Source of the DNA: Pseudovirgaria hyperparasitica
Taxonomy: Eukaryota > Ascomycota > Dothideomycetes > Acrospermales > Acrospermaceae
DNA length: 64,000 bases
Direction: 5' to 3'
NCBI RefSeq assembly: GCF_010093815.1
Contig: NW_022985580.1
Span: 58,385-122,384, forward strand
Shown: positions 3,972 to 40,786 of the stretch, piece after piece
Position numbering within the stretch: position 1 is the stretch's first letter
How the letters are laid out: every line of letters starts with the position of its first letter
Notes under the pieces: model-generated
The model's database searches: none
Told to the model about the DNA's origin: nothing
The model's input: the letters and a program-made list of their open reading frames with translations, nothing else
Program-made: the position numbers and the translations under genes

Positions 3972-4857
3972 AGGTTGGCCTAATGCGTCTACCTATAACA
4001 CCTATTATCCCTTCTCTATGTTAACTAATCCCTTTATAAGGTGAACTATTACTATCGTCTTCATTAATATAAGGTTCACGGTATTCTACTTATGTTATTA
4101 TCTTCGTGTAAGGCGTTCCTAAAGTGGTATACTCGTATAGCCGTGTTTATAAATAATAGCTATAGTAGCACTAAATAGATTATATTTGTCGTTTTTGAAC
4201 TCTTCTTTACTGCTTCATCTAGCCCTATTTTATATCCTATTCCCCTAAGACATTTTCGAGTCGCGCTATCACCCGTGTTAGTATGCGCATGCTTTTTACG
4301 GCTACTTTTAAGAGGCTAGCCCCTAGCGACTCCGGACTCCCTGTTTTCCGGACTCGTGGCTTCGATCTAGTAAGTCTAGACTACCTTATTAGGCACGCCA
4401 TATACTTCCCCTAAGCTAGTTTCGGAGTCCTAATCTCCCCCTATAAGTTCGTAGTCCGGGTACGACCTCTAAAATTATAGTAAGCTATCGCCACGTGTGT
4501 CCCTTTTATAAATAGCTATGTTCCTAGTATAGTAGTCGCGACGAACTCATAAGTATCTCTCCTAGGTATTATGAGTTCTCTTTGAACGTACGACTTCTTA
4601 TTAGTTCTCTTTTATAATAGGACGGGTCTATATAATACTCTTAATCAATTCTTTAATAGCTAAGCCTAATAATTAATACCTATAGAGGCCCATGAACGTA
4701 AGAAAAGGTCGAATAGTCGAATATTAGTGATGGGGGAAGCGCGCCGAGTAGAATGACCAAGGAAAACGCCCTCCTTAAATATATAATGAAGCCATGTAAT
4801 CGAGCTAGGGACATATACATATAGGGCTACAGGAGCGGCCTTCTATACTATATTAGA
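3972..4857. other. Upstream region of the gypsy element; LTR not resolved
   Basis: For a minus-strand gypsy element the 5' LTR and primer-binding site should lie here. I cannot delimit them because the partner LTR is outside the window. The stretch keeps slightly more CA and TG than its neighbours and has no convincing frame. Confidence 0.4.
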
Positions 4858-5229
4858 CTAAAAAGAGAAACGGCGTTTAGAGCAAGGCGGCGAAGGCGTA
4901 AACTCTCGATTATTGTCTACGACAAGATCTTCTTCATCCTCTAAAGGAGGTATAGTAGATAGGCGGCGCGAGTAGGTGTAGGTAGGCTTTATAGCTACCT
5001 CTTCCGTAACACTAGTACTAGGATTACCTAGATTAGAGCGACTAGTGGCCACGTTAGTGGTAATAGTAGTAGTAGCCTTAGCTACCTTCTTCTCTAACTT
5101 AGAGCGCGCCTTTATACTACTATAATAAGTGGATTTTTTAGCCGGTATAGCCGGGGTAGAGATAATCCCTTTAGAGCGAGTCTTACGAGAGGAGGAGGTA
5201 GACTTAGGAATAGAACTAGTATTAGACAT
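4858..5229 (-). CDS. Hypothetical 123-residue Ser/Thr/Lys-rich ORF
   Basis: This is an uninterrupted 123-codon frame with ATG start and stop. The product is low in complexity: Ser/Thr/Lys-rich N-terminus with basic clusters (SSSRKTRSKG), a Thr/Val stretch in the middle, an acidic patch (LEDEEDLVVDNN) and a basic end (SKRRFSF). I recognise no domain. It could be a basic N-terminal tail of a decayed transposon protein. Its openness may also be chance, because its own bases show the same low CA/TG as the surroundings. The downstream minus-strand sequence does not extend the frame. I treat it as a remnant. Confidence 0.25.
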   Translation of the reverse strand: MSNTSSIPKSTSSSRKTRSKGIISTPAIPAKKSTYYSSIKARSKLEKKVAKATTTITTNVATSRSNLGNPSTSVTEEVAIKPTYTYSRRLSTIPPLEDEEDLVVDNNREFTPSPPCSKRRFSF

Positions 5230-5965
5230 CTATATATATACGTTAGCTAGAGGTCTAAGAGTAGAATACTTATTTAGCCTTAAAGGCGATTAAAGAAGCT
5301 AAATTAGTAACCGTAATAACGCGAATAGATTACATAGAACCAGCTCTAATAAAAATAGACTACTCTAGACCCGAACGGATCTAAACTAAAGGAGATAGTA
5401 TACGAATTAACGACTTACCTTAAGAGTAAGGTAGATATACTAGAGAAGAAAATTCAGAATAAGAGAACTAAATATAAGCTTAGTTAATATAGCGGTTATA
5501 TAACCCGCGGAGCTATCTCTAAGGTAGTAGCTATGAAGTAAGGGATAAGCGTATATATAAATAAAAGTAAACTAGAGCTTAAGTTTACCGATATAAAGAC
5601 TATCGATAACGTTACATAGATTTAATTAGATGCGCGTATAAATATAACGCTTATAGAATTACGGATTTATATATAGCTAAGTGCTTCGGGGCGAAGCATA
5701 AAAAGAAGAAGGATATTATTAGGGCTAATACCAGGATAGACTTAACTAGAATACTATGGTCTAGTACGGTCCGTGACAGGTGGACCTAGGGTAAGTTAGC
5801 TAGAATAAGCGAGACCACTATATAAGTAGGCCGCATACACTTAATTCCTACTCTTTAGGAATTAACCTTGTTAGGAGAGTAGACTACCCTTTTAAATATA
5901 TTCCCGAATCCTCCTATAACCTGTTAGACTACTATCCTACGTCTACAATCCTTATACTTACCCCC
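5230..5965 (+). pseudogene. Decayed plus-strand coding fragment, unknown
   Basis: From about 5390 to 5690 one plus-strand frame is open apart from TAA/TAG codons at likely Gln positions. It reads as a Lys-rich, coiled-coil-like protein (for example YLKSKVDILEKKIQNKRT). No family is recognised. From about 5700 to 5965 the sequence keeps more CA/TG and holds no frame I can support. LINE copy A begins abruptly after it. Confidence 0.3.
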
Positions 5966-8900
5966 CTTAGTAGTCTATTTCCCTTAGTAGTTAATAAAGT
6001 ATATAAGCTAGTACTTTTTAGATATAAACTTTACTCTATAGCGCTTTACCTATTAGATATATCTCTTATAGTTCTATTTAAGACGCCTATATATCTAGCT
6101 AGTATTATTATTAATAGTAAGGAGATATATATTATCTATATATTACGTTCTCTAGAGAAGGTCTATAGTAAAGAAGAGAAAGAGAATTAGAGAGATAGTA
6201 CTTCCTTAAGGAATACTATATAATATTTTTTTATATTCGCTATAATATCTAGAAATATATATCTAGATAACCCTTTTAGTAAGGAAGGACTATATAAACT
6301 ATATAATCTACTCTAGTATACGTCTCCTCTATAGATTATAGATAAGTCTAGTATAGTTTATCTTATTAAATATACTAGCTATATTAAGGGAGAGTAGCGT
6401 TACTATATATCTCTATTTCTATATTTATAGTCTAGATAACTTTAAGGATATATTAGATAGCGGTAATTAGAGAGCTACTAGTCTTTATCTTCTAGTTTAC
6501 TAGAAGAAGACTATATACCTATACTATAACGCTTATCTTCTTCGCGATTATAGCTTCTAGTATCTTTCTAGGATAGAAGAGAAGGGTAATTAGTATCTAA
6601 CCTTTTAGAGAGCTAGGATTCTTTTCTAGTTTCGGGAGTATAACTATATAGATAGCTTAGAAGCTTTAGAGATAGTATCTATTCTTAGCGTATACCTAGA
6701 AGATAAGATTAATAAGCGGTATAGTTACCCGTATAGTATATTTAAGGTACCTATTTAGTATTCTATCCGGCCTAGATACCTTATTATTAGAGAGCGCTTT
6801 AATAGTATTAAGTATATTCTCTTTAGTAATCTTCTAGGGAATATCTATTAGATCTAGATACTTAGTATCTTTAATATTAGATAGGTCTACTAGTTCTAGA
6901 AGGGGGAATATAACTTCTCGTAGAATCTCTATCTTCTTCTAGCTTATAGAGTATATTCTTCCTTAGTATATTAGAGGAGGTATTAGTAGTAGTAATACTA
7001 GGGTATTAGTATCCTTAGCCTACTTAGCTATATACTATAGCTCTATAGTTTATTATATATACTTACTAGTAATTATATACTATTATTTATGTTATTTATT
7101 AAGGAGGGTTTAGTTATAATATTATACTATCTCTTTCTACTTATTCTATGCCTTAGTTATCTAGATATAGTATATATATATATATATAGTCTATAGGCCT
7201 CCCGTCTATATTCTTATATCTAAGATATACCCCTTACGTCTAGGGGTCTATATAGTTAGTATAGTACGTGTTTATCTCTTATATTCTAGTATACTTAAAG
7301 GAGGGTTTATACGGCTTTATTAATAGTAGGGCCGTTAGATATATTAACTATAGGGGTATCTAGAATCGCCGATTCTAGATTCTCTAGATAGTTATCCTAG
7401 TTAGTATCCTTCTATATCTACTTTCCTTATTAGTTATTAAGAGTAGAGACGTCTATTATAGTCTCTATATATTTATAGTTAGAGTCTATCTATAGTAGGC
7501 TTAGGTAGTAGTATTATACTCTATAGCTTATATAGTTAGTAGTAAGTATAAGGTCGATAGTAGATCTATCCTTATTCTATTTATATCTCTTCTATATAAT
7601 CTATTCTATAGATATAAGAAGGTATAGGAAGTCCTAGTATCGTATATATAGCTCCCTTACTCTAAGTTCCTCTCTAATAATAGTAGGGCCTCTCTACTAT
7701 CTATAGTAGAGATTAAAGTTACCTAGAAGGATATATTCTCCTAGTATTATAGTATCCTTAAGTATATTATCTAGTATAAGTAATTACTATTAATTATATA
7801 TATTATAGATATAAAGGGGCTCTATACTTATCTAGAGATATAATATTATCTAGAGGTTATTACGTTCGGTATAGGACTATTCTAAGAGTAGAATTAACTT
7901 ATATATATAAAATATTACTCTTCTATCTCGGCTTATAGGGTAGATAGTATAGTATTCTAGATATATTATTAGCTTATTAGTTTAGTAGTACTTATATAGC
8001 TCCTAGATAGTAAGTATTATAGCCCTAGTTTCTTTAAGGAGTATCGCCTAGTTCTCTCTTTTATACTATATATTTACCTATATAATTTAGAGTATATTAT
8101 AGTCCCTTATTAGATACTAGAGAGTATATATATCTATATACTTATTTCTTAGAGGTAGAGCTATCCCCTTATAGTAGTAGCTTTAACTATATCTTTTAGT
8201 CGCCCTATTATTCTAGAAATAGTCTACTATTCTACTAGGTTACCGTTCTAGAAGAAGGTTAAGGTTATATTTATTATAATAGAAGAGCTTATAGTAGATA
8301 TTATATTTTATAGCTATATTATATCTCTTACTTTTATTATATAAATATACTTAGTAATCTATCTATATTTATTATATATTAATAATTATAATGGGTATTT
8401 TCCTTTATAGTTTAAATACTATACTATATTCTTATTTCTTAGTCCGTCTTCTTACGGTTTATAAGAGTATTTCTAGATAGTATAGTCTCTATAATACTAG
8501 CCGTATTTAGTCTTCTATAAATACTATTATATAGTATAGCTATACCCTTAATAGTTAAAGTACTATATTATTATCTATACTCTATTCTATAGTTTAGCTA
8601 TAAAAAGTTTATCTTCTATAAGGAATCCCTTCTATATAATATATTATATAAGGGTAGAGTCCTAGAGCTATATAATTATAGTAGAGTATTTTTTAATCTT
8701 TGCCTTAATCCCTTATAGATTCTTCTATTATACCTTTATAATCTTAATCTCTAGATATTTTTACTTCTTAGCTTATTCTATATATAAAAGATTCTCTATA
8801 CTAATAGTCTATCTCTATACTAGTACTATATATATCTATATTAGATATATAGCTATCTAGATAGATACGCTAGGGAAGATATTATCTATCGCGTTTAGAT

Positions 8901-9578
8901 TACGTAAGATATTCTACTATACTATATTAGTTATAGTAGTAAGTACTACCCCTTCTAGTATAACTTTAGTAGCTATAATATTTAACTATATTCTCTTCTA
9001 TTTATTTATCTTATTTATAATTTCCTTTAGAGATACTTATTAGATCTATATAAGGGTATTCTTATTCTAGATTATAATATATACGCTATATACTCTATCT
9101 ATAATTCTAGTAGTCCTTAGGGCGGTAGCTCTAGATATAGCTATAATCTATACCTACGTATTAGGGCGCTTATCTTAGTATAGCTCTTTCTAAATCTATC
9201 GTAAGCTAGCTTCTATTCTATTAAGTCTATTATCTAGTTCTCTTTATAGTAATTTCTATAGTAACTTTCTCTCTTCCTCTATAAGTTCTCTTAGATTCTA
9301 GATAAGATCCCGGAATATATAGAGAAGGGTCTTCTTCTCTTCTACCGTATCTTTCTCTATATATATTATCTAGTATTTAATTTTATCTATAAGGGTCTCC
9401 TCTCTTAGAGTCCTCTTAGACTTAGTTATCTATAGTATTACTTACCCTTAGTTAGTTTCTATATTTTAGATAGGTATTTAACTATCTATATTAATATTAC
9501 TATATAGCTATTTCTATTATACTAGTAGGGGTATTTCTAGTATATACTAGGGTATAGCTATATCTAAGGCCGCTATAG

Positions 9579-9609
9579 TTATTAGTTAAGGGCTATCCTT
9601 AACTAATAA
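9579..9609. repeat. Palindrome copy 3, 5' side of LINE A ORF1
   Basis: 13-bp arms (ttattagttaagg and its complement) surround a 5-nt centre. One arm base has mutated relative to the other copies. It occupies the same place as in LINE B and C, directly upstream of the ORF1 start. Confidence 0.9.
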
Positions 9610-9721
9610 AAGGGGGTTAGTATATTAGTATTTATTAGATATAGTCTATACTTATATTATTAAGGGGTCTTCGAGCGTATATATATAGCTTCTTTATATA
9701 TTAGTATTATTATATACTATA

Positions 9722-9724
<3 letters not shown>

Positions 9725-9760
<36 letters not shown>
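9725..9760. repeat. (TA)n microsatellite
   Basis: This is an uninterrupted TA dinucleotide run of about 36 bp in the 5' region of LINE A. LINE B and C have ordinary sequence here with CG/CA steps, so RIP of a CA/TG-rich stretch followed by slippage is a likely origin. Confidence 0.9.
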
Positions 9761-9765
<5 letters not shown>

Positions 9766-9862
9766 GATTATTATACTTGGTATACTCTATCGTTTAATAT
9801 ACGTAAATTACTATATTACTCTAGATTAACTAGTTTTAGTCTATAGAGGTATAAGAAGTTTT

Positions 9863-10026
9863 TTTTTTAGATTATTATATATATAAAACTTATATACCCC
9901 CTTAATCTATATATATATATATATACCTTATATACTATTTTTTATTTTTATAGGTTTTTAGCTCTATTAATTAAATTAATAGAGTCTATAAAATACTTCT
10001 ATATAGAGTAGTTAACTACCTTAGTT
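9863..10026. other. AT-rich spacer with a 23-bp palindrome
   Basis: This is AT-rich sequence between LINE A and the next decayed frame. At 9962-9984 there is a perfect palindrome with 11-bp arms (ctctattaatt) and a single central base. The minus-strand frame of the next feature can be read into this spacer. Confidence 0.5.
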
Positions 10027-12640: not shown

Positions 12641-12886
12641 TATCTATAATAATAATAATAATAATATTATATAACTAGGTAGAGTAGTACTCTATAGGCC
12701 TATGCCTTCTCTAGTCTAAGCCACTATATAAGAAGAAACCCCATAGGGAAAAACTTCCTTATGTCTATAACTACATCTCGTTAAACCTCTATTTCGTCTT
12801 AAGTATATAGCCATAGGGTACGCCTATTAGCCTATAGCCTATATTACTATTATTTTACCCTTAGGTAGCACGTGTAGGTACGGAGG

Positions 12887-12917
12887 TTATTAGTTAAGGG
12901 CTACCCTTAACTAATAA
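12887..12917. repeat. Palindrome copy 4, 3' end of LINE B ORF2
   Basis: 14-bp perfect arms (ttattagttaaggg and its complement) flank a cta centre. On the minus strand it supplies the stop codons that end ORF2. Confidence 0.93.
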
Positions 12918-13243
12918 TTAGGGTTCTCCCGGGGTTCTTCCGGTATATATTAGGTTACTACCAGCGTATACCGGGTCTCTTCTAGTATATATTTCCGGGT
13001 CTACTAGTACTAGAGAAGTAGTAGATATATAAGTATCTATTAGAAGACGTCTTTAGGGTACTTATTAAGCTATTATACGACATCTAAAGTCTTTATAATA
13101 TAGATAAGCTATTACCGTTATATATAGAGGTTAGGGTATATAGCTAGATAGTAGCGTATTATACCTCTCTAGCCGTACACCTTATACTATAGGGAGGTGT
13201 CGGGAACGCCTCTCTTATAGATATAGTATAGGAGTCCTATAGC

Positions 13244-13383
13244 TGTTAGGCACGTGCCTACCAGTTGATTATACATGTGTGCAGTAGTCGTATATAAGTA
13301 GTGTACTCCACCCTTAAAGCAGTAGCTTCAAGATTCGGTCCTTTTAGTGTAGTTGGTTGGTGCGTAGAGCCCGCCTCCTTATA
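13244..13383 (+). repeat. Left LTR (140 bp) of the miniature element
   Basis: It runs from TGTTAGG to CTTATA. It contains an E-box-like palindrome ggcacgtgcc near the start, a TATA element at 13291-13298 and, about 30 bp downstream, agtagcttcaagat, the likely 5' end of the transcript. It matches the right LTR along its whole length. Confidence 0.95.
13291..13298 (+). promoter_or_regulatory. TATA element of the left LTR
   Basis: tatataag lies 30 bp upstream of the stretch complementary to the primer-binding site. That spacing is what a Pol II start at about 13320 would need. The element is conserved in the right LTR (around 13728-13735). Confidence 0.7.
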
Positions 13384-13385
13384 TA

Positions 13386-13399
13386 ATCTTGAAGCTACT
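13386..13399 (+). other. Self-priming primer-binding site
   Basis: atcttgaagctact, starting 2 nt after the LTR end, is the exact reverse complement of 13321-13334. In Tf1/sushi-group elements the 5' end of the mRNA folds back on the PBS and primes minus-strand cDNA instead of a tRNA. Position and pairing fit that mechanism. Confidence 0.85.
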
Positions 13400-13664
13400 A
13401 CGGGGTCACGGGTTCAACTCTCGGTCTAGTTAACCGTTATTGAATTTCGCACGATTTCGTTTAGCTTGCCACGTTACGTATACTTTGTGCACGTGACGGA
13501 TAACATGGTGGTAACGTTACTACGGTAAGTTAGCGTGTCTAGTACTAGAGGCGGCATTACGAGTATTGATTGGGTGTACACATAATTCGTTTATACTAGG
13601 CCTATTATAGCTAGTTTATCTTTCGTGAGGTAGATGCCCACGACGTGTAAGGGCACGCGCCTTT

Positions 13665-13676
13665 AAAAAGGGGAGA
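13665..13676 (+). other. Polypurine tract of the miniature element
   Basis: aaaaaggggaga lies 3 bp upstream of the right LTR, where a plus-strand primer site is expected. Confidence 0.75.
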
Positions 13677-13679
13677 TAT

Positions 13680-13819
13680 TGTTAGGCACGTGCCTGCCAG
13701 TTGATTATACATGTGTGTAGCAGTCGTATATAAGTAGTGTACTCTACCCTTGAAGCAGTAGCTTCAAGATTCTGTCCTTTTGGTGTAGTTGGTTAGTGCG
13801 TGGAGCCCGCCTCCTTACA
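13680..13819 (+). repeat. Right LTR (140 bp) of the miniature element
   Basis: Same length as the left LTR, TGTTAGG to CTTACA. It retains CA/TG at several sites where the left copy has TA, and the reverse at others, so both copies were mutated independently. Confidence 0.95.
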
Positions 13820-16800
13820 ATAGCGCCCGTTCGGGCTTGGATAAGTATAGATACTTAGGCTTTCGTTAGCCCTTTATATATCTATTTACTTAGTTCCTTC
13901 TATGGCCCTCGAATCTACTCTAGGTATCTATTCTACTAGGAGGTCTAGTAGGTATAGAGTACCTCTTTCTACTTATCTTAAGTCTATAACCGTATATTTT
14001 TCACGAGTTCTTAAAGGCTCTATTAGTCTAGGAGAGCGTCCGGGTTATCTCGGACTTCTTATACTACTTAGCTAGAGTCGGCTTCTATTAAGCACCTATA
14101 CCGTATTCGATTCCGGCCTATATATAGGAGTGCGTAGTAATATATACTAATTCATGCACGTAGCGCGGCGAAAGTATATTCTACGTTTCCTATGCGTTCC
14201 TATACTTATTATTTAGTAAAGTATACTACCCTCTATATCTAGTAGAAGTTATATATACTTATAACGTCTATCTCGCGTCGTAGTAGTACCGTGTTAGTAG
14301 CTTTATATACGCCTAATATAAGACGGAGTATACGGTTCTATATGGATTCGAGCTTTATTCGCCTAGTCTATATAAGGGCCGTGTACTAGTACTCGTGTCC
14401 GTACGTAAAGGCGGGTCGTGCTATAGATATATATAGCTAGCGTGCCTTATCCCGGGCGGTTCCCTACGTGGAGACTATAATCCGTTATATAGTAGCTTCT
14501 ACCCGGAGGGCCCTAGAGACGGCGTATACTACTTATAGTCCCTATTTAAGCTTACTATCTAGTATAACTCCGAGCGCGCGTATACTTTATACTAGTAGTT
14601 TATTAAATGCGTCGATTCGGGGGCGTTATTTGCCTTCCCTAGTTATCTATTTCCCTTAACGATTAATAAAGTGTATAAGCTAGTATTTCTCCGGGGCGAA
14701 CTTTGCTCTATAGCGTTTTATCTACTAGAGGTACCTCTTATAGTTCTATTCTAGTCGTCTATACGTTCCGTTAGTATTATTATTAATAGCTAGAAGATAT
14801 ATATTATCGGCGTATCCGACTACCTCTATATACTTTATTTCTTAAAGAAGGTCTACTATAAAGAAGAGGAATAGGATCGGAGAGATGGTACTCCCTTATA
14901 GGATGCCGTATACCGTCTCTTTATATTTACTCTAGTACCTAGGGATATATATCTAAGTTATTCTTTCTATAAGGAATAACTATATAAAGCGTATAATCTA
15001 TTCTAGTATTCGTCTTATCCGGAGGTTATAAATAAGTCTTATATGGTTTACCTTATTAAACGCTCCGGCTATATCGAGGGAGAGGAGTAATACTACCTAT
15101 CCCTATTTCTATACGGCCTAGATAACTTTAATAATATATTAGATAGCTATTATTAGGGAGCTATCTATCTTTACCTTCTAGTTTAGAGGGAGAAGATTAT
15201 ATTCCTATACCGCGGTACTTATCTTCTTCGCTATTATAGCCTCTAGTATCTTACCTAGGTAGGAGAGAAGGGCGATTAGTCTCTATCCCTTTAGGGAGTT
15301 AGGGCTCTTTTCTAGTTTCGGGAGTATAATAGTATAGGCGACTCGGAAGCTCTAGGGGTGGTACCCCTATATAACGCATGCTTAGAATATACGAGTAATA
15401 AGTGGTAGAGTCGCTTTTATAGTACTTTTTAGATATTAATTTAGAATTCCATCTAGTCCGGGTACTTTATTATTTAGGAGTATCTTAATAATATTAAGTA
15501 TATTCTCCTCCGTAACTTCTTCGGGGATATCTACCGCGTATAGATATTTAGCGCCGTAAACGTCTAATAGGTCTACTAGTTCCGGAAGAGGGAACATGGC
15601 CTCCCGTAGGGCCTTAGTTTTCTTAAGGCCCGTAGAGTATGTTCTCCCCTAATATATTAGAGGAGGTATAAGTAGCGGGGGTGTCGGAGTATCTACGCCC
15701 TTAGCCTATTTCGCCATGCGCCATAGCCCTATTATATATTATATCTATTAACTAGTAATTATACGCTACTATTTACGCCTTTTATTACGGAGGACTTTAT
15801 TACGTTATTATATCGCTTCCTTCTATTCTTTCTACGACTCGGGTATTCTTATATAGTATACGCGTCTATATAGCCTTCGGGCGTCTTATCTACTTTCCCG
15901 TACTTAAGGAATCCCCTTTACTTCCGGGGGCCGGTATATTCGGTATAGTACGTATTTATTTCTTATATTCTAGTATGTTTATAGGAGTATCTATATGGCC
16001 TGGTCTATGGCTAGGTCGTTAGATATATTAACTATAGAGGGATCTAGAATTACCGATTCTAGGTCCTTCAGGTACTTTTTCTAGTCGGTATCCTTCTATA
16101 TCTATTATCCCTATTATTTATTTGGGGTATACACGTTTATTATGGTTTCCATGTATTTATGGTCGGAATCCGTCTATACCTAGCCTAGGCGGTAGTATTA
16201 GATCCGGTAACTAATATACTCCGTAGCGAAGGTAAGGTTAAGCATAGACCCGTCTTCGTCCTATTTATATTTTTTCTATATAACTTATTCTATAGGTATA
16301 AGTAGGTATAGGAAGTCGTGGTAGCGGGTGCGTAGTTCTCTTACTCTAAGTTCTTCCCTAACTACGGCTAGGCCTCTCTACTATTAGTAGTAGAGGTTAA
16401 AGTCTCCTAGAAGGATGTATTACCCTAGTTCCGTAGTACCCTTAAGTATCTCGTCTAGTATAAGTACACGTTATTAGTTATATATGTTATATATATATAG
16501 GGGGCCTATATCTATTTATAGGTGTAGTATTATTCTAAGGTTATCGCGCTCGGTATACGACTATAATAAGAGTAGTATTAACCTATGAATATAGAAGAGG
16601 ACTCGTCTTTCTAGTCCTAGAGGGTATATAGTATAGTATCCGGGGTGTATGGTTAGTTTACTCGTCTAGTAGTGTTTATAGGGTTCCTAGATGGCGAGTA
16701 TTATAGCCCTAGTCTCTTCGAGGAGCGTCGCCTAGTTCTCTCTTTTATATTATATATTTACCTATATAATTTAGAGTATATTCTAGTCCCTTATTAGGTA

Positions 16801-18244
16801 CTAGGGAGTATATATATCTATATACTTATTCCTTAGAGGCGCGACTATCCTCGCGCGGTAGCGGCTTTAACTCTATCTTTTAGTCGTTCTATCGTCTTTA
16901 GGATAGTCTACTATCCTACCTAACTATCTTCTAGAGGGGAGGTTAGAGGTATTATAAAGGAAGGGCTCGTAGTAGATATTATATTCTATAACTATCTCGC
17001 GCCTCTCGCTTTTATCGTATAAATATATTCTATAATCTATTTACGTTTTATATACGTTAACGACTATAACGGGTATTTCCCGTTGTAGTTTAAATACTAT
17101 ACTATATCCCTATTTCTTAGTCCGTCTCCTCGCGGTTTATAAGGGTACTTCTAGGTAGTATAGTCTCTACGGTACTATCCGCACTTAGTCTTCTATAAGT
17201 ACCTTTATATAGTATGTCTATACCCTTAATAGTTAAAGTACTATATTATTATCTATACTCTATTCTATGGCTCGGCTATAAGGAGCTCTCCTTCTATTAG
17301 GAATCCCTTCTATATAATATATTATACGAGGGCGGGGTCTCGGAGCTCTATAATTATAGTAGAGTGTTTTTTCGCCGTCGTCTTAATCGCCTATAGGTTC
17401 TTCTACCACGCTTTCACGATCTTAATCCCTAGGTATTTTCGCGTATTAGATTATTCTATACGCGTAATATTCTCCGCTCCGATAGCCTATCCCCGCACGG
17501 GTACTACATATACTATAATCGGGTATATAGCTACTCTAATAGACGCGCTAGGGAAGATACTACCTATTACGTTCGGATCTCGCGAGATGTTTTACTATAT
17601 AGTATTTATTATAGTAGTAAGTACTACCCTATCTAGCGTAACTTTAGTAGCCATAACGCTTAACTATATTTCTTTCTATTCGTTAATCTTATTTATAATT
17701 TCCTTTAGAGATATCTATTAGACCTACGCTAGCGTGTCCTTATCCTAGATCACGATACGTATACTATATACTCTATCTATAGTTCTAGTAGTTCTTAGTA
17801 CGGTAGCTCCGGGTATTACTATAATCTAAGCCTATGTGTTAGGGCGCTTACCTTAGAATAGCTCTTTCTAGATTCTCCGTAGGCTAGCTTCTATTCGGTT
17901 AAGTCTACTACTAGGTTCCTCTTATAGCGACTTCCTTTCTTCCTCTATAATTCCTCTTAGATTCTGGATAAGATCCCGGAATATATAAAGGAGGGTCTTC
18001 TTTCCCTTCTCGGCGTCCCTCTCTATATATATTACCTAGTATTTAATTTTATCTAGGAGGGTCTCCCCTCTCGGGGTCCCCTCGGTCTAGGTTATCTATA
18101 GCGCTTCGCACCCTTAGTTAGTTCCTATATTTTAGATAGGTGTCTAGCTATCTATATTAATGTCGCTATATAGCCGTTTCTACCGTACTAGTAGGGGCAT
18201 ATCCGGCGTATACCGGGGTATTATAATACCTAAGGCCGCCATGG

Positions 18245-18275
18245 TTATTAGTTAAGGGTAGCCCTTAACTAATAA
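18245..18275. repeat. Palindrome copy 5, directly upstream of LINE B ORF1
   Basis: 14-bp perfect arms with a tag centre. The ORF1 ATG (18242-18240) lies 2 nt beyond it on the minus strand. Confidence 0.93.
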
Positions 18276-18510
18276 AAGGGGGTCGGCGTGTTAGTATTTA
18301 TTAGATGTGGTCTATGCTTATGTTATTAAAGAGTCTTCGAGTATATATATATAGTATCTCTACACGTTAGTATTATCGCGTATTATACGCTATACGTACG
18401 CACGTGTATCGGAGGTTATTATACTCGGTATACTCTATCGTTTAATGTATGTAAATCGCTGTTTTACCCCGAATTAACTAGTTTGGTCCGTTAGGGTATG
18501 AGAAGTTTTT

Positions 18511-26040: not shown

Positions 26041-26380
26041 TCGATGTAATTAAGCCTTACGTTCAAGCCGAGTCTCACGTTTAAGTCGAGCCTTACGTTT
26101 AAGTCGAGCCTTATACTTAAGTCGAGCCTTATGTTTAAGCCGAGCCTTACGTTTAAGTCGAGCCTTATACTTAAGCTAATCCTTACGTTTAAGCTAAGTC
26201 TCACGCTTAAGCCGATCCTTACGTTTAAGCTAAGCCTTACGTTTAAGCCGATCCTTACGTTTAAGTCAAGCCTTACGTTTAAGCCGATCCTTACGTTTAA
26301 GCCGATCCTTATATTTAAGCCGAGCCTTACGTTCAAGCCGAGCCTTATATTTAAGCCGAGTCTTACGCTTAAGTCGAAGC
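26041..26380 (+). repeat. 18-bp coding minisatellite (6-residue repeat)
   Basis: About 18 units of 18 bp (consensus near cttacgtttaagccgagc) lie in phase with the helicase gene frame, where they read as variants of YVQAEP/HVQAEL with Gln codons turned to TAA/TAG. The unit length keeps the frame. The minus and other plus frames are also open here, which is a by-product of the repeat. Confidence 0.9.
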
Positions 26381-29300
26381 TTACGATACGACTACCGTCT
26401 CGACCGATAATAAACCACTTGTCTTTAGTATACTTACCGGTAACTACTATCCTAACGACGAGTATGAACTTAAGAAGATCTAAAGTAGTAAGACTCCCGT
26501 TCCTACTTACGCCACCTATTAGATCTCTCTTATATAGGGCGATCTATAGTTAACCTTTAGGAATGTCTATGGTATTAGTAGAGAAATAGATGGACTTAAG
26601 TAGAAACAAGCGAAAACTCAAGCCGAGCTTAAGCTAGTAGTATTTAAGGCTTATAGTAAAGGTTACGGCTTCGAAGAGTCGATTAGTTATATATATAGAT
26701 TCCTTAAATTCCCTAAGTACCGCTCTTAGATTAAGTTACGTACTCGCTTCCGATAGATTAATAAAGGGAAATCGGTATCCTTAATAAGCTTACTCCGCTT
26801 TAATCGTACTAACATCCTTCTATTATCCGACTACCCTATAGTATAGATCTTCAAGGTTAAGTAAGTAGGCGACTTTATCGAGTATTTTTCTAAACTTCCT
26901 AATCTTATTATAAGCGAAGCGGATAAAGCCAATATACTATATATTAACACCGGCCTCTACGAAGACCCTCGCGACTTTTAGATTATCGAACTTATAGCTA
27001 GCGAGCTTCTTAGTATAGGTTTTATTATCCCGTTATATATTAGACCCGATATAATATATAAACGAGTAAAGTAATTCTTCGAAGATCTAGGTGCTTATAC
27101 TATAGTTCGTATCTTACTACCGCTACGTGACCCTATGGATCTTACCGGCTTTAATAATAAGCTTAAACTAGAGAGCGATCCGATTAATTTATAGTATATA
27201 GAAGTTACTACTCCCTATATATAATACGGCATAATAAGTAGGCCGGACACTTGGCCCTAGATCTCTATTCCCTACCGCGAGTCATTCGATAAGAAATTCG
27301 ACTATCTAATATATATTACTATAAGTACCTTATAAGACGAATAGACCGATCTTCTATTATCCTAATTCTAAGACGTTACGGTTAGATATATCTAGCTCTT
27401 AGGTGTTACTCGGGCGCTCTTAGCCATCGTCTATCCTATTAATATAAAAGGATTCCATCGTATGGAACTAGGTAGTTATAGGTACCTTAAAGTGGATTTA
27501 AAGGATTATAATAACGACGTGTACCGCTTTAAAGTCCTTCGATTTCGCCTAGGCGTCCTTCTATTCGAATGCCTTACTCTAAAAGTCTTTAATAAGGTTA
27601 GGCGTCCTCCTAAAGCACCTAAGGTACCGATTATATTAATAGATGCGGTTACTAATATAACTCGAGCTCGTCCTAAATATTTTATTCGGACTAGCAACAC
27701 TAGTTTAAGTATAATTAGGTTATCTCTTACCACGCTTATAGGGTTCACGGACGTTCCGGCTTTAGTTAGCGTATAAACCTATAATAAGCTTACTAAGTAA
27801 CGCATTAATACGTGCTAGAAACTAATCTACTACGCCGTATAAGCTTCTAGAGACGGCGGCGTAGACGACCACGCTACTTAGGATGCGTTTAATACGATAG
27901 TCCTTAATGTTATTATGGACTCGGTATCTATATCTCTAATATATAGGTTCTCTAACCCTAACGACGAGATTCTAGATTATAGTACGGAGCCTTAGAATAC
28001 CCTCGTTACTCTTTCTAAATTATCTATATCCCTAGATAATAATAAGGATATAAATATAGAACATAGTCACGATATTATTAGCGACGAAGGTTCTATTACT
28101 AGCCCCGTTACCGATATATACATACTCCTAATATCGTCTAAAGTCTACTCTAGTATCCTATCCCCTTTACTACCCTCCGTATAGAATCTAATACTTAGTA
28201 ATAACTACCTAAATCTTTAACCTATCGACTATAACCGCTACGTTAAAGATTATAAAAGATTCTACGATCTCTAGAATATTATACGTTTAGAACTATCTCC
28301 CTAATAATAGTATACCTATATATAGGCAACGGACGCACTTAGGGCTTAGTTTCTACTTCACGGCTATGGAGGAGCTAGGAAGAGCCATTTATAGCTTCAT
28401 CTACTACTAGCTACACTTCTAATTAACGAAATAAACGGTGCTCCTATTATCGCTTATACTACTAAGGTAGTTATTCTATCTAGCGATGTAATAGCGCACC
28501 TCCCTACGCTAGATTCCACCTAAACATATAGAATATATATATATATTATTATCGGCCTAACTAACGAAACCTACGACGACGCTATAAGAAAAGCATATGA
28601 ATATACGAGTAATATATTTACTCGCTATAAGTCTCTAAAGATACCGGTCGTTCTTCGAAGATACCCTAAAGCCGTTAATCGAGAGGTTTTCTTTACTATA
28701 GCTAGACTATCTTATTACGGCGACCCTCTTATCGGGCTAACCTAGAATAATATAATAGACGGTACTATCCTCACGTAAGTCTAGACCGACTATAGTAAAC
28801 GACCATTAGAATATAGTACGGATCCCCGTGCTCGTCTATAGGAACTATATACTAGTTATATTATACTCGAGGTTATCGGACTCGTTAAATCTCGATACTA
28901 ATACGAATAGATCCCTAAGAATTTCGAGAAAGAAACGGCTCGGCCATTACGCGCTATCTATAAACGTTACGCTTATAATAAGGACATGTCTAAGGAGAAG
29001 TATAATAGGATGAACGAGCTATACCTCGCTACCTAGGACCTAGTTACTATCCACGCCTAGATTCATGTAGGGACCCCATATATTATAAATATCGCCAAGG
29101 TAGCCCGTAATATATATCCGATTTTAGTCGTGATAGAAGAGGCTACGTGTATCCTTAAAAGTAATATACTTAGGATTATTATTAATTACACTACTATAGA
29201 ATAGTAACCGACATTTATTTACGTCGGCAACCTACGCTAGCTCGACACCTACTAGCGTAATAGTACTAATATATAGGCCGCGAACTAGAGGATCTCCTTC

Positions 29301-30600: not shown

Positions 30601-33547
30601 CTTCTTAGTAAGTATACCTCTATATCTATTTTAGATATAGTCATGATATCCTACTAGATAGATAGTTTAGCTCTATTAAAGACCTATTAAGGGTATTTCC
30701 ATCACGTCTACTCTAGTATAGACGCGCTATTAGATAATACGGCGCCACTAGACACGTTAACTAGTACCTACCGATTAAGAAATAAATACGATTCTATATC
30801 TACCGCGAGCCCCGGCCTAATAACGTAGGCTTCCTTTAGTTATCCCCTTTATACTTTTAAAACTACTTCTAGCCTTTATATTAGGAGATATTACTATCTA
30901 AAGAGAAAATATAAAAAAACATACGCCCTAATTAAAGCCTCCACCTTTAGACTTTAACCATAATATATACGGGATATAGTAAACCTAAATATCGCGTACT
31001 TTAAAAGCATGGAAGGATACGACACTCGAATATAACGAAATATAGGCTTATAATACTCGGAGAGTACCTAGGGATAAGTATATGAATATAAAATGGGATA
31101 AGACTAACGCGGCACCTCGTACATGCGTGGCCATATACCGTCCTAGACGTAGCCGCCTACGATATAACATTACGAGATAAGAATCATGGCTATCTAATTC
31201 TATTAAGGGTATTAGACGATATAAAGTAAATAACTATACGCCCGACCACGCTACGCTAAGTTACGTACGTGTTATAAACGCGTGTTTAAGGAATAATAAG
31301 GATATAAACGAGGTTCACCTAGTAGGTGCCTCGTTATTCTAGCTTCTACCTCTATCGTCCGATCTATACCTCCGTCTTCCTTACGTCTACGATATACTAC
31401 GCGTATACTATATAATTAGTCCGTAAATTATAAATACTATATTAACTACGCACGTTAACTATATACGATTAATATATCGAATCCGATTCTATAATAAAGT
31501 AACCGTCCAAATATAGTAATTACTATAGTACTACTTCGTATCTTAAGCCTAGATATATAAGTAAAGCGTGAAGCTATGGAGGCGCGTATAAGGTAGCTAT
31601 ATATAGAAGTATATACGGCTACTCCACTCGTAGACCATGGGCGTTAAACTAAGAACGAGCTCGGCGTAAAAAGAGTACATAAGATTATTAATAAGATAAT
31701 AGGTAAATTCCTAGTAGTATAGGAAAGAGTAGTAGAGTATATAGAGATGAAGGCGCTATACTATATCTACGACCAGGTACGCACTATAGTATAGAAAACC
31801 GTACATTATAGAAAAACTATCTCTAAGTATAAGAAGAGGCGCGTAATTATAGCCCTACATCCCACGACCTTATAATCCCCGCCTATTATAATCTTATAAC
31901 CTCCGCCTATCGCGACCTTATAACCCCCGCCTATTACGACCTTATAGCTCTTATATACCACGACCTCATAGCCTATACTCGCAGCAGTCCCATAGCCTAC
32001 TAACGTATATACTACGAGAAAAATCAAATTTATAATTAGGTTTAACGATAACATATTCCTTAAAATACTAGTACCTACGTCTAACTAGTAGAAAGACTAT
32101 AGCAATGCTTCGTGTATTAATTTAGTAGTATTTATATAGCGAATTAGGGTCTAATACGTAACGAAGACTAGGAGGGTACTTAACTAGAGCCGTGCTACCA
32201 TATATTCTATCGTGCTAGTAGTCGAGTATATAATAAGTAAAACGGAACTAGAGGTAGATATTAGATAGCTCCTATAGTTAGTAATCGAATATATCCTAGA
32301 ACATAGTAATAGTATAATACTCCTCGGCCTTAGATAGAATATAGATGGTATACCCGAAGTAAAACGAAATATAAACCAGCGACTAACATATAATAGTATA
32401 GACGGCTATATATAGGTTACGCTCGAATAAATCCGCCCCTCCGTCCCTAATACTATACTCGCTATAATTAGTATAATAATAGTAATAGAAAGCTACCGCC
32501 TATAACGGTAGAGATACCTACGGAGATAGTATTATAGGTAGTAGATAGCATCACCTAAACGACTTAACCCTTCCTCTAGCGATACTATATATACTACTAT
32601 CGGCACCCGGGAAGTCGCGAGACCGACCTATAAGCTCTAAAGATAGTAACTTCGAAAGTCTTAAAAGTACCTTAGATATAGAGGATATGGATGTCGCTTT
32701 TAAAGACTAATAGAATAATAAAAAGAGTGCTAGAGGTAGTAAGAGTAGCGTGCGTACTTGGCTAAGGCGATGCGATCCGACGTAAGACGGCTTCTATCTA
32801 CTATATATCGGTATATACCCGATTCTACTAGCTATACAACTATAGTGTACATGTTTAGTTAAGACGTTACAATACCGGTATAAGCCGGCGTCTACCTAGT
32901 TTACGTTAGGATACGCCCGGTCCTACTAGCTACATTATTACTACAACTATAATTGTATAAGATCCACTCTAATAATTAAATATTTACTTATATACTTCAC
33001 TTCCTCCGCACTTATCGAAATTATATTATAATTACTAAACGCGGTAACTTAACTCCTACCGCCTAAATCTAGTTTTTATATCTTATCGCCATTAACGCCG
33101 TCTTACTACCTATAGCCTAAGTTATATATAGGAATAGATAGGTATAACGAGAGTTACGACTATCCTAGTTTAACTACCGGCCATAGAATGGCTAACCGTA
33201 ACACGTATATACGACGTACAGAGGCCTTAAGTATTAGCGCCCTTCTACCTTATATCTAGTACCTCCGAGGCCTATATCTAATATCTAAAATAAGTTATAA
33301 TATATATAGGGCTACTATTATTAAGATAGTAAGTAAAGAAGTGGTAATAGAGCTTAAAACTAGTAGTATAGACACTACTATACTCTATAGAATAGTTAAG
33401 GAAACCGTTACTAGAGAATTTAATTGGCACATCGCGGCTATAAATAGTAAGTTAGTACCGACGGTTACGACCATAGATATAATAGAGGCTAAACTAGACA
33501 TAGATACTATAGGCATAGGTACGTAGATATAGTTACCGCTAGAATAT
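30601..33547 (+). pseudogene. Decayed plus-strand coding track between the two helicase genes
   Basis: Long plus-strand segments are open except for RIP-type stops (for example NAAPRTCVAIYRPRRSRLR near 31105-31160, and DLYLRLPYVYDILRVYY near 31360-31415). An imperfect repeat of about 27 bp at 31853-31960 reads RPYNPRLL. No domain is recognised. From about 33341 the frame runs straight into the 78-residue repeats, so at least the last part is the N-terminus of the SNF2-like gene. Confidence 0.5.
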
Positions 33548-35540
33548 AAGGAGAAAGATAATATAGAAGATACTAAAATGGAAGACGACGTAGCTAGTAT
33601 ACTTAGATACATATATATATACACGGTTCTAGATACTAACATTAGAGTAGTATCGAAGATACGTGCGGCTATAACCACCGACATAGATAATCTATCTATA
33701 AATGTTATCGTGTCTAGCGAAGCTCATCCACGCGTAAACATACTAGCTATAGAGATATAGTTATAGTTGCCGCCGGAATATACGGAGAAAGAGAACGTGG
33801 AAGATACTAAAATAGAAGATAACGCAGCTAGTATACTTAGATACATATATATATATATAGTCCTAGATGCTAATATTAGAGTAGTATCGAAGACAGGTAC
33901 GGCTATAACTACTAATATAGATAATCCACCCACGAATATCGTCGTGCCTAGCGAAGCTTATCTACGCGTAAATACACCAGCCATAGAGATATAGTTATAG
34001 TTACTACTAGAATATACGGAGAAAGAGAACGTGGAAGATACTAAAATGGAAGACGACGCAGCTAGTATACTTAGACATATATATATATATATATAGTCCT
34101 AGATACTAACATTAGAGTAGTATTAAAGATAGGTACGGCTATAANNNNNNNNNNNNNNNNNNNNNNNNNNNNNNNNNNNNNNNNNNNNNNNNNNNNNNNN
34201 NNNNNNNNNNNNNNNNNNNNNNNNNNNNNNNNNNNNNNNNNNNNNNNNNNNNNNNNNNNNNNNNNNNNNNNNNNNNNNNNNNNNNNNNNNNNNNNNNNNN
34301 NNNNNNNNNNNNNNNNNNNNNNNNNNNNNNNNNNNNNNNNNNNNNNNNNNNNNNNNNNNNNNNNNNNNNTACTTAGACATATATATATATATATATAGTC
34401 CTAGATACTAACATTAGAGTAGTATTAAAGATAGGTACGGCTATAACTACCGATATAGATAATCCATCTACGAATATCGTCGTGCCTAGCGAAGCTTATC
34501 CACGCGTAAACACACTAGCCATAGAGATATAGTTATAGTTACCGCCGGAACATACGGAGAAAGAGAACGTGGAAGATACTAAAATGGAAGACGACGTAGC
34601 TAGTATACTTAGATATATATATATATATATAGTTCTAGATGCTAATATTAGAGTAGTATCGAAGATAGGTACGGCTATAACTACTAATATAGATAATCTA
34701 TCTATGAATATCGTCGTGCCTAGCGAAGCTTATCTACGCGTAAACATACTAGCTATAGAGATATAGTTATAGTTACCACCGGAATATACGGAGAAAGAGA
34801 ATATAGAAGATACTAAAATGGAAGACGACGTAGCTAGTATACTTAGACACATATATATATATATGGTCCTAGATACTAACATTAGAGTAGTATCGAAGAC
34901 AGGTGCGGCTATAACCACCGATATAGATAATCCACCTACGAATATCGTCGTGTCTAGCGAAGCTTATCTACGCGTAAACATACTAGCTATAGAGATATAG
35001 TTATAGTTACCGCCGGAACATACGGAGAAAGAGAACGTGGAAGATACTAAAATGGAAGACGACGTAGCTAGTATACTTAGACACATATATATATACATAG
35101 TCCTAGATACTAACATTAGAGTAGTATCGAAGATAGGTGCGGCTATAACCACTAATATAGATAATCCACCTACGAATGTTATCGTGTCTAGCGAAGCTTA
35201 TCTACGCGTAAACATACTAGCTATAGAGATATAGTTATAGTTACTATTAGAATATACGGAGAAAGAGAACGTAGAAGATACTAAAATGGAAGACGACGTA
35301 GCTAGTATACTTAGATACATATATATATATATGGTCCTAGATGCTAATATTAGAGTAGTATCGAAGATAGATGCGCCTATAATTACCGATATAGATAATT
35401 CCCCTACGAATGCCGTCGTGCCTCTAGATACTAGCGAGACTTATCTACGGCTACTAGAAATAAAGAGGACACTCTCGAATAACATAGTAAACCTAGTCGA
35501 TTCTCCGAAACGCCTAAAACTAGAATATATTATACTACTA
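33548..35540 (+). repeat. 234-bp tandem repeats encoding a 78-residue unit
   Basis: Seven units are visible. Their MEDDVASIL-type segments start at 33578, 33812, 34046, 34584, 34818, 35052 and 35286. The spacing is exactly 234 bp except across the assembly gap, so the reading frame is preserved. Each unit reads as an acidic stretch (KENVEDTKMEDD), a helical VASILRHIYIYxVLD segment, NIRVVSK, and a Pro-rich linker. The first copy is the most diverged. The repeat belongs to the N-terminal half of the protein whose SNF2-like domain lies beyond LINE C. The many short ORFs on both strands here are shadows of the repeat. Confidence 0.92.
34145..34369. other. Assembly gap (225 N)
   Basis: The gap lies inside the 234-bp tandem array. 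The distance between flanking units (538 bp) is not a multiple of 234, so the gap size is nominal and the true repeat number is unknown. Confidence 0.99.
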
Positions 35541-35726: not shown

Positions 35727-35743
35727 GTTAGTACGAAACTATA
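35727..35743. repeat. Left 17-bp target-site duplication of LINE C
   Basis: gttagtacgaaactata is identical to 41030-41046. Length and position fit target-primed reverse transcription. Confidence 0.95.
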
Positions 35744-35981
35744 ATAATAATAATAATAATATTATATAACTAGGTAGAGTAGTACTCTATAGGCCTATAC
35801 CTCCTCTAGTCTAAGCCACTATATAAGAAGAAACCCCATAGGGAAAAACTTCCTTATATCTATAACTACATCTCGTTAAACCTCTATTTTATCTTAAGTA
35901 TATAGCTATAGGGTACGCCTATTAGCCTATAGCCTATATTACTATTATTTTACCCTTAGGTAGCACGTGTAGGTGCGGAGG

Positions 35982-36012
35982 TTATTAGTTAAGGGCTGCC
36001 CTTAACTAATAA
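35982..36012. repeat. Palindrome copy 6, 3' end of LINE C ORF2
   Basis: 14-bp perfect arms with a ctg centre. On the minus strand the ORF2 frame runs into it (PRENPDY then TAG). Confidence 0.95.
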
Positions 36013-39000
36013 TCGGGGTTCTCCCGGGGTTCTTCCGGTATATATCGGGTTACTACCGGCGTATACCGGGTCTCTTCCGGCATATATTTCCGGGTCCACT
36101 AGTACTAGAGAAGTAGTAGATGTATAAGTATCTATCGGGAGACGTCCTTAGGGTACTTATTAAGCTATTATATAATATCTAAAGTCTTTATAACGTGGAT
36201 AAGCCATTACCGTTATATATAGAGGTTAGGGTATATAGCTAGATAGTGGCGTATTATACCTCTCCGGCCGCACGCCTTATACTATAGAGATATATCGGGG
36301 ACGCCTCTCTTATAGAGGTAGTATAGGAGTTCTATAGCGCCCGTTCGGGCTTAGATAAGTATAGATACTTAGGCTTTCGTTAGCCCTTTATATATCTATT
36401 TACTTAGTTCCTTCTATAGCCCTCGAATCTACTCTAGATACCTATTCTACTAGGAGGTCTAGTGGGCACGGAGTGCCTCTTTCTACTTATCTTAAGTCTA
36501 CGACCGTATATTTTTTATAAGTTCTTAAAGGCTCTACCGGTCTAGAAGAGCGTCCGGGTTATCTCGGACTTCTTATACTACTTAGCTAGAGTTAGCTTCT
36601 ATTAAGCACCTATACCGTATTCGATTCCGGCCTATATATAGGAGTACGCGGTAATATATACTAATTCGTACACGTAGCGCGGCGAAAGTATATTCTACGT
36701 TTTCTATGCGTTCCTATACTTATTATTTAGTAAAGTATACCACCCTCTATATCTAGTAGAAGTTATATATACTTATGACGTCTATCTCGCGTCGTAGTAG
36801 TACCGTATTAGTAGCTTTATATACGCCTAATATGAGACGGAGTATACGGTTCTATATAGATTCGAGCTTCATTCGCCTAGTCTATATAAGGGCCGTATAC
36901 TAGCACTCGTGTCCGTACGTAAAGGCGGGTCGTGCTATAGATATATATAGCTAGCGTGCCTTATCCTAGGCGGTTCCCTACGTGGAGACTATAATCCGTT
37001 ATATAGCGGCTTCTATCTAGAGGGCCCTAGAGACGGTATATACCACTTATAGTCCCCATTTAAGCTTGCTATCTAGTATAACTCCGAGCGCGCGTATGCT
37101 TTATACTAGTGGTTTATTAAATACGTCGATTCGGGGGCGTCGTTCGCCTTCCCTAGTTACCTATTTCCCTTAACGATTAATAAAGTATATAAGCTAGTAT
37201 TTCTCCGGGGCGAACTTTACTCCGTAGCGTTTTACCTACTAGAGGCACCTCTCGTGGTTCTATTCTAGTCTTCTATACGTTCGGTTAGTATTATTATTAA
37301 TGGCTAGGAGGTATATATTATCGGCGTATCCGACTACCTCTATATACTTTATTCCTTAAAGAAGGTCTACCGTAAAGAAGAGGAATAGAATCGGAGAGAT
37401 AGTACTCCCTTATAGGATGCCGCATACCGTCTCTTTATATTCGCTCTAGTACCTAGGGATATATATCTAAGTTATTCTTCCTATAAGAAATAACTATATA
37501 AAGCGTATAATCCATTCTAGTATTCGTCTTATCCGGAGGTTATAAATAAGTCTTATATAGTTTACCTTATTAAACGCTCCGGCCATATCGAGGGAGAGGA
37601 GCGATACTACCCGTCCCTACTTCTATACGGCCTAGACGACTTTAATAATATGTTAGATAGCTATTATTAGGGAGCTATCTACCTTTACCTTCTAGTTCGG
37701 AGGGAGGAGATTATGTTCCTATACCGCGGTACTTATCTTCTTCGCTATTATAGCCTCTAGTATCTTACCTAGGTAGGAGAGAAGGGCGATTAGTCTCTAT
37801 CCCTTTAGGGAGTTAGGGCTCTTTTCTAGTTTCGGGAGTATAATAGTATAGGCGACTCGGAAGCACTAGGGGTGGTATCCCTACGTGACGCATGCTTAGA
37901 ATATACGAGTAATAAGCGGTAGGGTCGCCTTTATAGTTCTTTTTAGGTATTAATTTAGAATTCCATCTGGTCCGGGTGCTTTATCATTTAGGAGTATCTT
38001 AATAATATTAAGTATATCCTCCTCCGTAACTTCTTCGGGGATATCTACCGTATATAGGTATTCGGCGTCGTAAACGTCTAATAGGTCTACTAGTTCCGGG
38101 AGAGGGAACATGGCCTCCCGTAGGGCCTTAGTTTTCTTAAGACTTATAGAGTATGTTCTCCCCTAATATATTAGGGGAGGCATAAGTGGTGGGGGTGTCG
38201 GAGTATCTACGCCCTTAGCCTATTTCGCCATGCGCTATAGCCCTATTACGTGTCGTGTCTATTAACTAGTAATTATACGCTACTGTTTACGCCTTTCGTT
38301 ACGGAGGACTTTATCGCGTTATCGTATCGCTTCCTTCTATTCTTCCTACGACTCGGGTATTCTTATATAGTGTACGCGTCTATATAGCCTTCGGGCGTCT
38401 TATCTACTTTCCCGTACTTAAGGAATCCCCTTTACTTCCGGGGGCTAGTATATTTAGTATAGTACGTGTTTATTTCTCGTATTCTAGTATGTTTATAGGA
38501 GTATCTATACGGCCTAGTCTATGGCTAGGTTATTAGATATATCGACTATAGAGGGATCTAAGATCGCCGATTCTAGGTCCTTCAGGTACTTTTCCTAGTT
38601 AGTATCCTTCTATATCTATCGTCCCCGTTGTTCATTCGGGGTATATACGTTTATTACGGTTTCCATGTATTCGTGGTCGGAATCCGTCTATACCTAGCCT
38701 AGGCGGTAGTATTAGATCTAGTAACTAATATACTCCGTGGCGAAGGTAAGGTTAAGCGTGGACCCGTCTTCGTCCTATTTATATTTTTTTTATATAACTT
38801 ATTCTATAGGTGTAAGTAGGTATAGAAAGTCGTGGTAGCGGGTGCGTAGTTCCCTTACTCTAAGTTCTTCCCTAACTACGGCTAGGCCTCTCTACTATTA
38901 GTAGTAGAGGTTAAAGTCTCCTAGAAGGATATATTACCCTGGTTCCGTAGTACCCTCGAGCATCTCGTCTAGTGTAAGTATACGTTATTAGTTATATATA

Positions 39001-40753: not shown

Positions 40754-40755
40754 AT

Positions 40756-40786
40756 TTATTAGTTAAGGGCTACCCTTAACTAATAA
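40756..40786. repeat. Palindrome copy 7, directly upstream of LINE C ORF1
   Basis: 14-bp perfect arms with a cta centre, in the same place as in LINE A and B. Confidence 0.95.

Follow-up and report, generated by a model that had tools for sequence, protein, structure and literature searches.

A 576-bp non-coding TRIM that is probably self-primed in the manner of Tf1

Self-priming of reverse transcription has been described for full-size gypsy elements. Both Tf1 and Tj1 are self-primed, with a primer-binding site (PBS) complementary to the start of their own transcripts (PMC4600332). A second group of related systems comprises the short Helenus elements, which carry a tRNA-like sequence in the LTR and whose PBSs correspond to the 3′ ends or anticodon loops of tRNAs; in that work the tRNA-like part of the LTR was found not to be complementary to the PBS (Kojima, 2024; PMC10886601). 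No description of a self-primed TRIM was seen among the open-licence PMC papers covered by the search.

The window analyzed here, i.e., the whole 64-kb stretch of DNA, contains an element of 576 bp with an interior of 296 bp between two LTRs (Table 1). The LTRs are 93% identical over 138 positions, and nine of their ten differences are transitions, the tenth being a transversion. The target-site duplication (TSD), the polypurine tract (PPT), and the TATA element TATATAAG of the original prediction were all recovered, whereas the predicted TG...CA ends hold for the 3′ LTR and not for the left one, which ends in TA. No ORF of 150 or more amino acids was found in the whole window, in agreement with the claimed lack of coding capacity. 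The flanks of the element match an uninterrupted sequence farther along the window, positions 12644-13243 corresponding to 35739-36338 (93%) and positions 13820-18509 to 36334-41022 (88%). Since these two matches overlap by exactly the five bases of the TSD, they fix the borders of the element and demonstrate insertion with a 5-bp stagger. That the element is a genuine transposed TRIM, non-autonomous and non-coding, is practically certain. The mutated repeat that received it (12644-18509) has further copies at 35739-41022 and 5955-9864. Other repeats of the window are an array of 234-bp tandem units with 85-91% matches (33524-34144 and 34370-35423) and an array in which an 18-bp unit recurs 18.5 times (26053-26385).

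Table 1. Features of the TRIM and of its empty site, in window coordinates
Feature	Position	Strand	Basis
Left target-site duplication ATAGC	13239..13243	+	Empty site at 36334-36338
5′ LTR, 140 bp, TG...TA	13244..13383	+	LTR comparison, empty-site borders
TATA element TATATAAG	13291..13298	+	Identical in 43/43 copies
Primer arm, predicted RNA 5′ end, complementary to PBS	13321..13335	+	Complement, shuffles, fold
TTTT, possible edge of R	13342..13345	+	First of only two T4 runs
Pol III A-box-like TAGTGTAGTTGG, in LTR	13345..13356	+	Pattern match
Putative self-complementary PBS, 1 base inside LTR end	13385..13399	+	Complement to arm
Pol III B-box-like GGTTCAACTC, internal region, directly past PBS	13411..13420	+	Pattern match
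Purine tract AAAAAGGGGAGA	13665-13676	+	Sequence
Polypurine tract and GATAT junction preceding 3′ LTR	13665..13679	+	Sequence
3′ LTR, 140 bp, TG...CA	13680..13819	+	LTR comparison
Primer-arm copy in 3′ LTR	13757..13771	+	Same sequence as 5′ arm
TTTT of 3′ LTR, possible Pol III stop	13778..13781	+	Second T4 run
Right target-site duplication ATAGC	13820..13824	+	Sequence
Empty site, 5-bp target in another copy of the invaded repeat	36334..36338	+	Flank alignment

The search for further copies, proposed with the original prediction, was performed on the assembly of the same genome (35.0 Mb, 59 contigs). The element matches at least 45 places (40 of 97 candidates scored), and the resulting set comprises 43 distinct full-length copies from 51 loci, with identities between 77 and 100%. 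A 5-bp TSD flanks 37 of the 43 copies, being perfect in 32, changed by one transition in 3, and by one transition plus a 1-bp shift in 2; the six copies devoid of it include members of tandem arrays and one copy with an unrecognized start. Among the copies with a recognized start, 25 loci have at least one empty site in the examined sequences, each with a 5-bp overlap, and all LTR-only loci examined (8/8) are 140-bp solo LTRs with perfect 5-bp TSDs. The primer-arm pattern (one mismatch allowed) has 154 matches genome-wide vs. 1 for the reversed-pattern control, the PBS pattern (two mismatches allowed) has 55 vs. 0, and a strict PPT/LTR pattern occurs in 6 places, every one of them in TRIM copies. 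Tandem LTR-interior-LTR-interior-LTR arrays with a common middle LTR were observed at C2:5407-6425 and C20:818757-819755, and at C7:1596946-1598152 (locus L062) a copy is split by a second TRIM copy of the opposite orientation.

The primer arm and the PBS form a perfect reverse complement, AGTAGCTTCAAGATT, that pairs positions 13321-13335 with 13385-13399, and the arm of the 3′ LTR is equal to that of the 5′ LTR. The originally predicted complement of 14 nt (13321-13334 with 13386-13399) is real and in fact one nucleotide longer. The arm starts 30 nt after the first base of the TATA element, the PBS begins 1 nt from the LTR end, and the LTR junction has no TGG. In 20,000 Markov shuffles of the LTR and interior, the longest complementary run was 14 nt and never 15 (131 shuffles gave at least 10), and 12 nt was the maximum when 5,000 shuffles covered only the 75 nt from the TATA box onward. 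Folding of the predicted RNA forms the arm-PBS helix with pair probabilities of 0.89-1.0; the fold of 82 nt has a z-score of -4.19, and none of 200 shuffles was equally stable.

The pairing is widely retained in the family. With the helix extended to 17 nt, the first arm can be scored in 42 of the 43 copies, the remaining copy being gapped in the arm. Watson-Crick pairing is 17/17 in 21 copies, 16/17 in 19 (6 of which have G-U as the seventeenth pair), 15/17 in one, and 14/17 in one. Copies in which the two 14-mers do not match, named in advance as evidence against self-priming, were thus not the rule: half of the scorable copies pair completely and 20 more at 15-16/17. Every departure in the first arm is either a G-U at pair 1 or a C-A at pair 2 or 11; the C-A type affects pair 2 in 12/42 first arms, including that of the window copy, and these non-pairs fall at C/T-variable, RIP-like sites. 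Across the family, most variable columns are either C/T followed by A (28 of 66) or G (28 of 66), or G/A preceded by T (55 of 93) or C (29 of 93), as RIP together with CpG decay would give. These CpA and CpG transitions, taken with gypsies that carry a Tf2-type domain, indicate a RIP-active filamentous fungus.

Variation in the PBS itself bears on co-variation. The window copy has CTTGAAG in the PBS in place of CTTAAAG, the sole case among 55, and both of its arms carry the matching C. In the retroviral scheme the primer can serve as template for the PBS of a new copy, and for this reason self-priming predicts such a matched variant. The variant of the window copy points toward co-variation as a single case, which is short of proof; moreover, the two arms share a motif open to C-to-T mutation, which can mimic or abolish pairing and give the same correlation. 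Differences between copies are nearly all transitions, transversions being too rare for tests of conservation or co-variation of the arms, and arm conservation is accordingly not distinctive.

We consider Tf1-type self-priming the best reading of this TRIM and a probable one, based on its anatomy and on the exclusion of other primers. The RNA of the element would begin at approximately 13321, and its first 15 nt would fold back onto the PBS. RNase H supplied in trans would cut after approximately 13335, and the freed 3′ end would prime minus-strand DNA, as in Tf1. Second-strand DNA would begin at the purine tract, and insertion, with a 5-bp stagger, would be carried out by a foreign integrase. 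Such proteins would most likely come from a gypsy family of approximately 8 kb with a Tf2-type integrase domain. Pol III may contribute to making the RNA via the tRNA-like A and B boxes. The originally predicted self-primed miniature is thus supported in part, by anatomy, by the copies, and by the lack of a better match among the 49 host tRNA genes described below, whereas its expected co-variation rests on one copy.

The role of the tRNA-like boxes, through which Pol III may make or help make the RNA, is the least certain step of this scheme. The motifs TAGTGTAGTTGG and GGTTCAACTC fit the Pol III A and B box consensus. The expression for the pair, chosen after sight of the sequence, finds no second A+B pair on either strand of the 64-kb window, and it matched in 1 of 100 shuffled windows and in 1 of 20,000 shuffled elements; in its strict form it recovers 9 of 49 host tRNA genes. 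Box B is kept in 43/43 copies when C or T is allowed at the mutable site (strictly in 8), and box A in 39/43 when one G/A is allowed (strictly in 10). Host tRNA-Ile(AAT) agrees with the 3′ LTR half in 18 of 20 nt, giving a score of 16.0 that is tied with tRNA-Gln(CTG), the null having its 99% point at 14.0 and its maximum of 500 at 15.0. The best match of the box-B half is tRNA-Phe, at 14.0 equal to the 99% null, and the whole tRNA-like stretch of the window copy reaches 14.5 (95% null 13.5, maximum 16.0). For the 43 copies the best tRNA scores range from 17.0 to 10.0, with tRNA-Ile the best for 28. The resemblance is local, as an Rfam scan of positions 13200-13900 with E up to 5 gave no match; ARAGORN predicted no tRNA over the window.

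TTTT occurs just twice in the element, at positions that correspond between the two LTRs (13342 and 13778). If the transcript starts at 13321 and these runs bound R, then R is 25 nt; the first run stands in the path of the polymerase. Given that box A is in the LTR and box B outside it, solo LTRs and the 3′ LTR are left with no full promoter. RNase P cleavage at the 5′ end of the tRNA-like part, as a means of freeing the primer, was dropped from consideration, as no good acceptor stem was seen by eye and, further, the cut would leave two unpaired bases. A self-primed miniature made by Pol III, in which the TATA element and boxes A and B would set the start at the arm and R would be 25 nt, is a tentative proposal, somewhat less likely than not. 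The leader of the tRNA-like RNA would then itself be the primer of reverse transcription, and the TRIM would resemble a SINE that exploits the LTR machinery while dispensing with a cellular tRNA.

Priming by host tRNAs was evaluated with a set of 49 genes (63 of 912 candidates scored, introns unspliced). A canonical PBS for a tRNA 3′ end was rejected, the best of the 49 genes matching at 9/12 and the junction having no TGG, compared with 12/12 for tRNA-Met in the most intact gypsy of the genome, on contig C36, analyzed by the same script as a positive control. The control result establishes that the script can detect a normal PBS; the first 40 internal bases of this gypsy contain no self-complement of 7 nt or more. 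The TRIM might alternatively be primed by an internal piece of a host tRNA, from the anticodon loop, which would make the LTR match a by-product. PBSs of this kind are reported for most fungal Helenus elements (Kojima, 2024; PMC10886601). The best-scoring tRNA, Leu(CAG), does pair through its anticodon loop, and the tRNA-Leu(CAA) gene at C18:374193, sought deliberately for the likeness of its anticodon loop to the arm and already present in the set, has CTCAAGAT, of which 7 nt (TCAAGAT) recur in the primer arm as judged by eye. Nevertheless, none of the 49 unspliced genes beats shuffled PBSs (9.5 for the best gene vs. an average of 9.85 over 30 shuffles and 15 for the self arm), and the same is true of the commoner CTTAAAG PBS (9.0 vs. 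a shuffle mean of 9.6). A better host tRNA match, which the original prediction had held to speak against self-priming, was therefore not seen among these genes. We regard anticodon-loop priming as unlikely, since it would also leave unexplained a 15-nt LTR match located 30 nt past the TATA box.

About as improbable, in our view, is a hairpin formed by the two arms for another role, such as packaging or dimerisation, with priming achieved otherwise. The precedent is provided by fungal GalEa Copia elements, described in PMC5445492 as having no PBS and a conserved hairpin site past the 5′ LTR. The GalEa halves are 9 bp long, contain a conserved A/A mismatch, and both lie past the LTR (PMC5445492), whereas the complement of the TRIM joins LTR and PBS, its LTR half lying where the RNA is predicted to begin, and extends over 15 nt with no mismatch.

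The arm copy at 13757-13771, within R, offers a further partner for the PBS, so that the RNA 3′ end might pair with it and either prime or circularise the template. The 3′ LTR arm of the window copy is indeed equally complementary (15/15). We judge this reading highly improbable, as the bases from the arm to any R end would presumably form an unpaired 3′ overhang, and as the 3′ arm pairs somewhat worse in the family, being perfect in 16/43 copies vs. 21/42 for the 5′ arm. Inner mismatches (pair 11, 12, or 8) affect 15/43 second arms and 4/42 first arms; in the second arms they comprise 14 cases of C-A at pair 11, one of them further changed, and one C-T at pair 12. The reading of the sequence as SINE-like and not as an LTR element, with an inverted repeat that is accidental or merely structural, is suggested by the A and B boxes and the tRNA similarity; it is scarcely credible, being contradicted already by the empty sites of 25 loci as well as by two LTRs, a PPT, 5-bp TSDs, solo LTRs with TSDs, and a complement longer than any in shuffles.

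A gypsy of approximately 8 kb (L135/L136), present as mutated copies with LTRs of approximately 240 bp (pair 93% identical over 241 bp), is a plausible helper of the TRIM. Among its stop-free pieces, RVT_1 is matched with 29.7 bits (the cut-off being 29.6) and SH3_Tf2-1 with 54.5 bits (cut-off 30). The LTR starts with TGTTAGG and ends with CTTATA in 3/6 junctions and TTTATA in 3/6, compared with CTTATA and CTTACA at the LTR ends of the TRIM. The TATA element of the six gypsy LTRs examined is TATATAAGTAG in five and TATATAAGTGG in one. GATAT precedes TATTAGG at four 3′ junctions of this gypsy, one TRIM subfamily having GATAA; the expression for the GATAT junction also matches unrelated places. 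The shared ends are short motifs, absent from the single control gypsy on C36 and given with no estimate of chance. The interior of the candidate helper starts with TTTTAATTYCT, with no TGG, and its LTR-PBS complement is at most 9 nt long. For Watson-Crick pairing, P ranges between 0.02 and 0.68 across the six junctions, one of which is significant at the 0.05 level; with G-U allowed, none is. A 9-nt complement at TATA+38 has a Watson-Crick P of 0.02 in L072 and a P of 0.18 with G-U in L135; in the remaining four junctions the longest run is a different one. For the proposed parasitism of a self-priming gypsy there is thus a candidate helper with common LTR ends, TATA core, and PPT junction, one that may or may not be self-primed. 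The L135 family has itself been invaded by the TRIM, 7 of the 25 empty-site loci having an empty site in it.

Other gypsies of the genome were considered as well. The gypsy on C36 was rejected as helper, being primed by tRNA-Met and having different LTR ends; SH3_Tf2-1 was not found in it. It spans C36:47680-56888 (L134 and L131), has open frames of 425 and 1441 aa and 134-bp LTRs that are 99% identical, and is apparently young. Two further RVT_1 regions (L132 and L133) contain no LTR pair within them. A search for elements sharing the PBS gave 297 places; among the 100 matches listed, 52 are mismatch-free and all coincide with TRIM PBSs, 7 have one mismatch (4 of these were looked into), and many others are TRIM arms. 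The recurrent TATTATCTTAAAGGTACT lies approximately 520 nt downstream of RVT_1 matches in the cases compared by eye, and probably belongs to gypsy coding sequence. Among the 150 RVT_1 matches listed in the genome, 145 contain stops. The window itself holds, at 4848-5956, the 3′ part and LTR of the candidate helper family, and a perfect 985-bp direct repeat at L072:2535-4514 is possibly an assembly duplication.

Compared with known systems, the TRIM is closest in its putative priming to Tf1 and Tf2 of S. pombe and Tj1 of S. japonicus, in which the PBS is complementary to the first bases of the element RNA, as it is here to the predicted ones. The self-complement extends over 15 nt, whereas that of Tf1 is 11 nt. 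Like the Tf1-type elements, the TRIM has no PBS for a tRNA 3′ end (among the 49 host tRNA genes); unlike these full-size, coding elements, it is non-coding, 576 bp long, and equipped with tRNA-like boxes. A self-primed miniature would show the minimal needs of such an RNA, namely a primer arm, a PBS, a purine tract, and LTR ends, and its small size would make it a handy substrate for establishing which features are recognised in trans by the reverse transcriptase and RNase H of a self-priming system.

In its overall design the TRIM is near Helenus/TRIMp3, being short, with A and B boxes and, as in fungal Helenus, 5-bp TSDs. Its length falls into the Helenus range of 311-1263 bp given by Kojima (2024; PMC10886601), and its tandem copies have a counterpart there in LTR-11_DR. 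It differs from Helenus as described in that paper in that box A is located in the LTR but box B in the internal region, and in that the PBS matches the LTR; furthermore, fungal Helenus points to Copia, whereas the candidate helper of the TRIM is a gypsy. Bivalve TRIMs likewise have no identifiable canonical PBS, and self-priming elements are mentioned in the discussion of that work (PMC6934838). The plant TRIM Cassandra, with its 5S rDNA promoter, shares with our element a Pol III promoter of a small-RNA type, which is putative here. Its R measures 18 bp, as cited in PMC10886601, vs. 25 nt in the present case if bounded by TTTT; Cassandra is 5S-derived, and no mention of self-priming was seen for it in the literature covered. 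If the tRNA-like boxes of the fungal element work, a TRIM of the Pol III type and self-priming, two designs reported only separately in the literature covered, would be combined in a single element.
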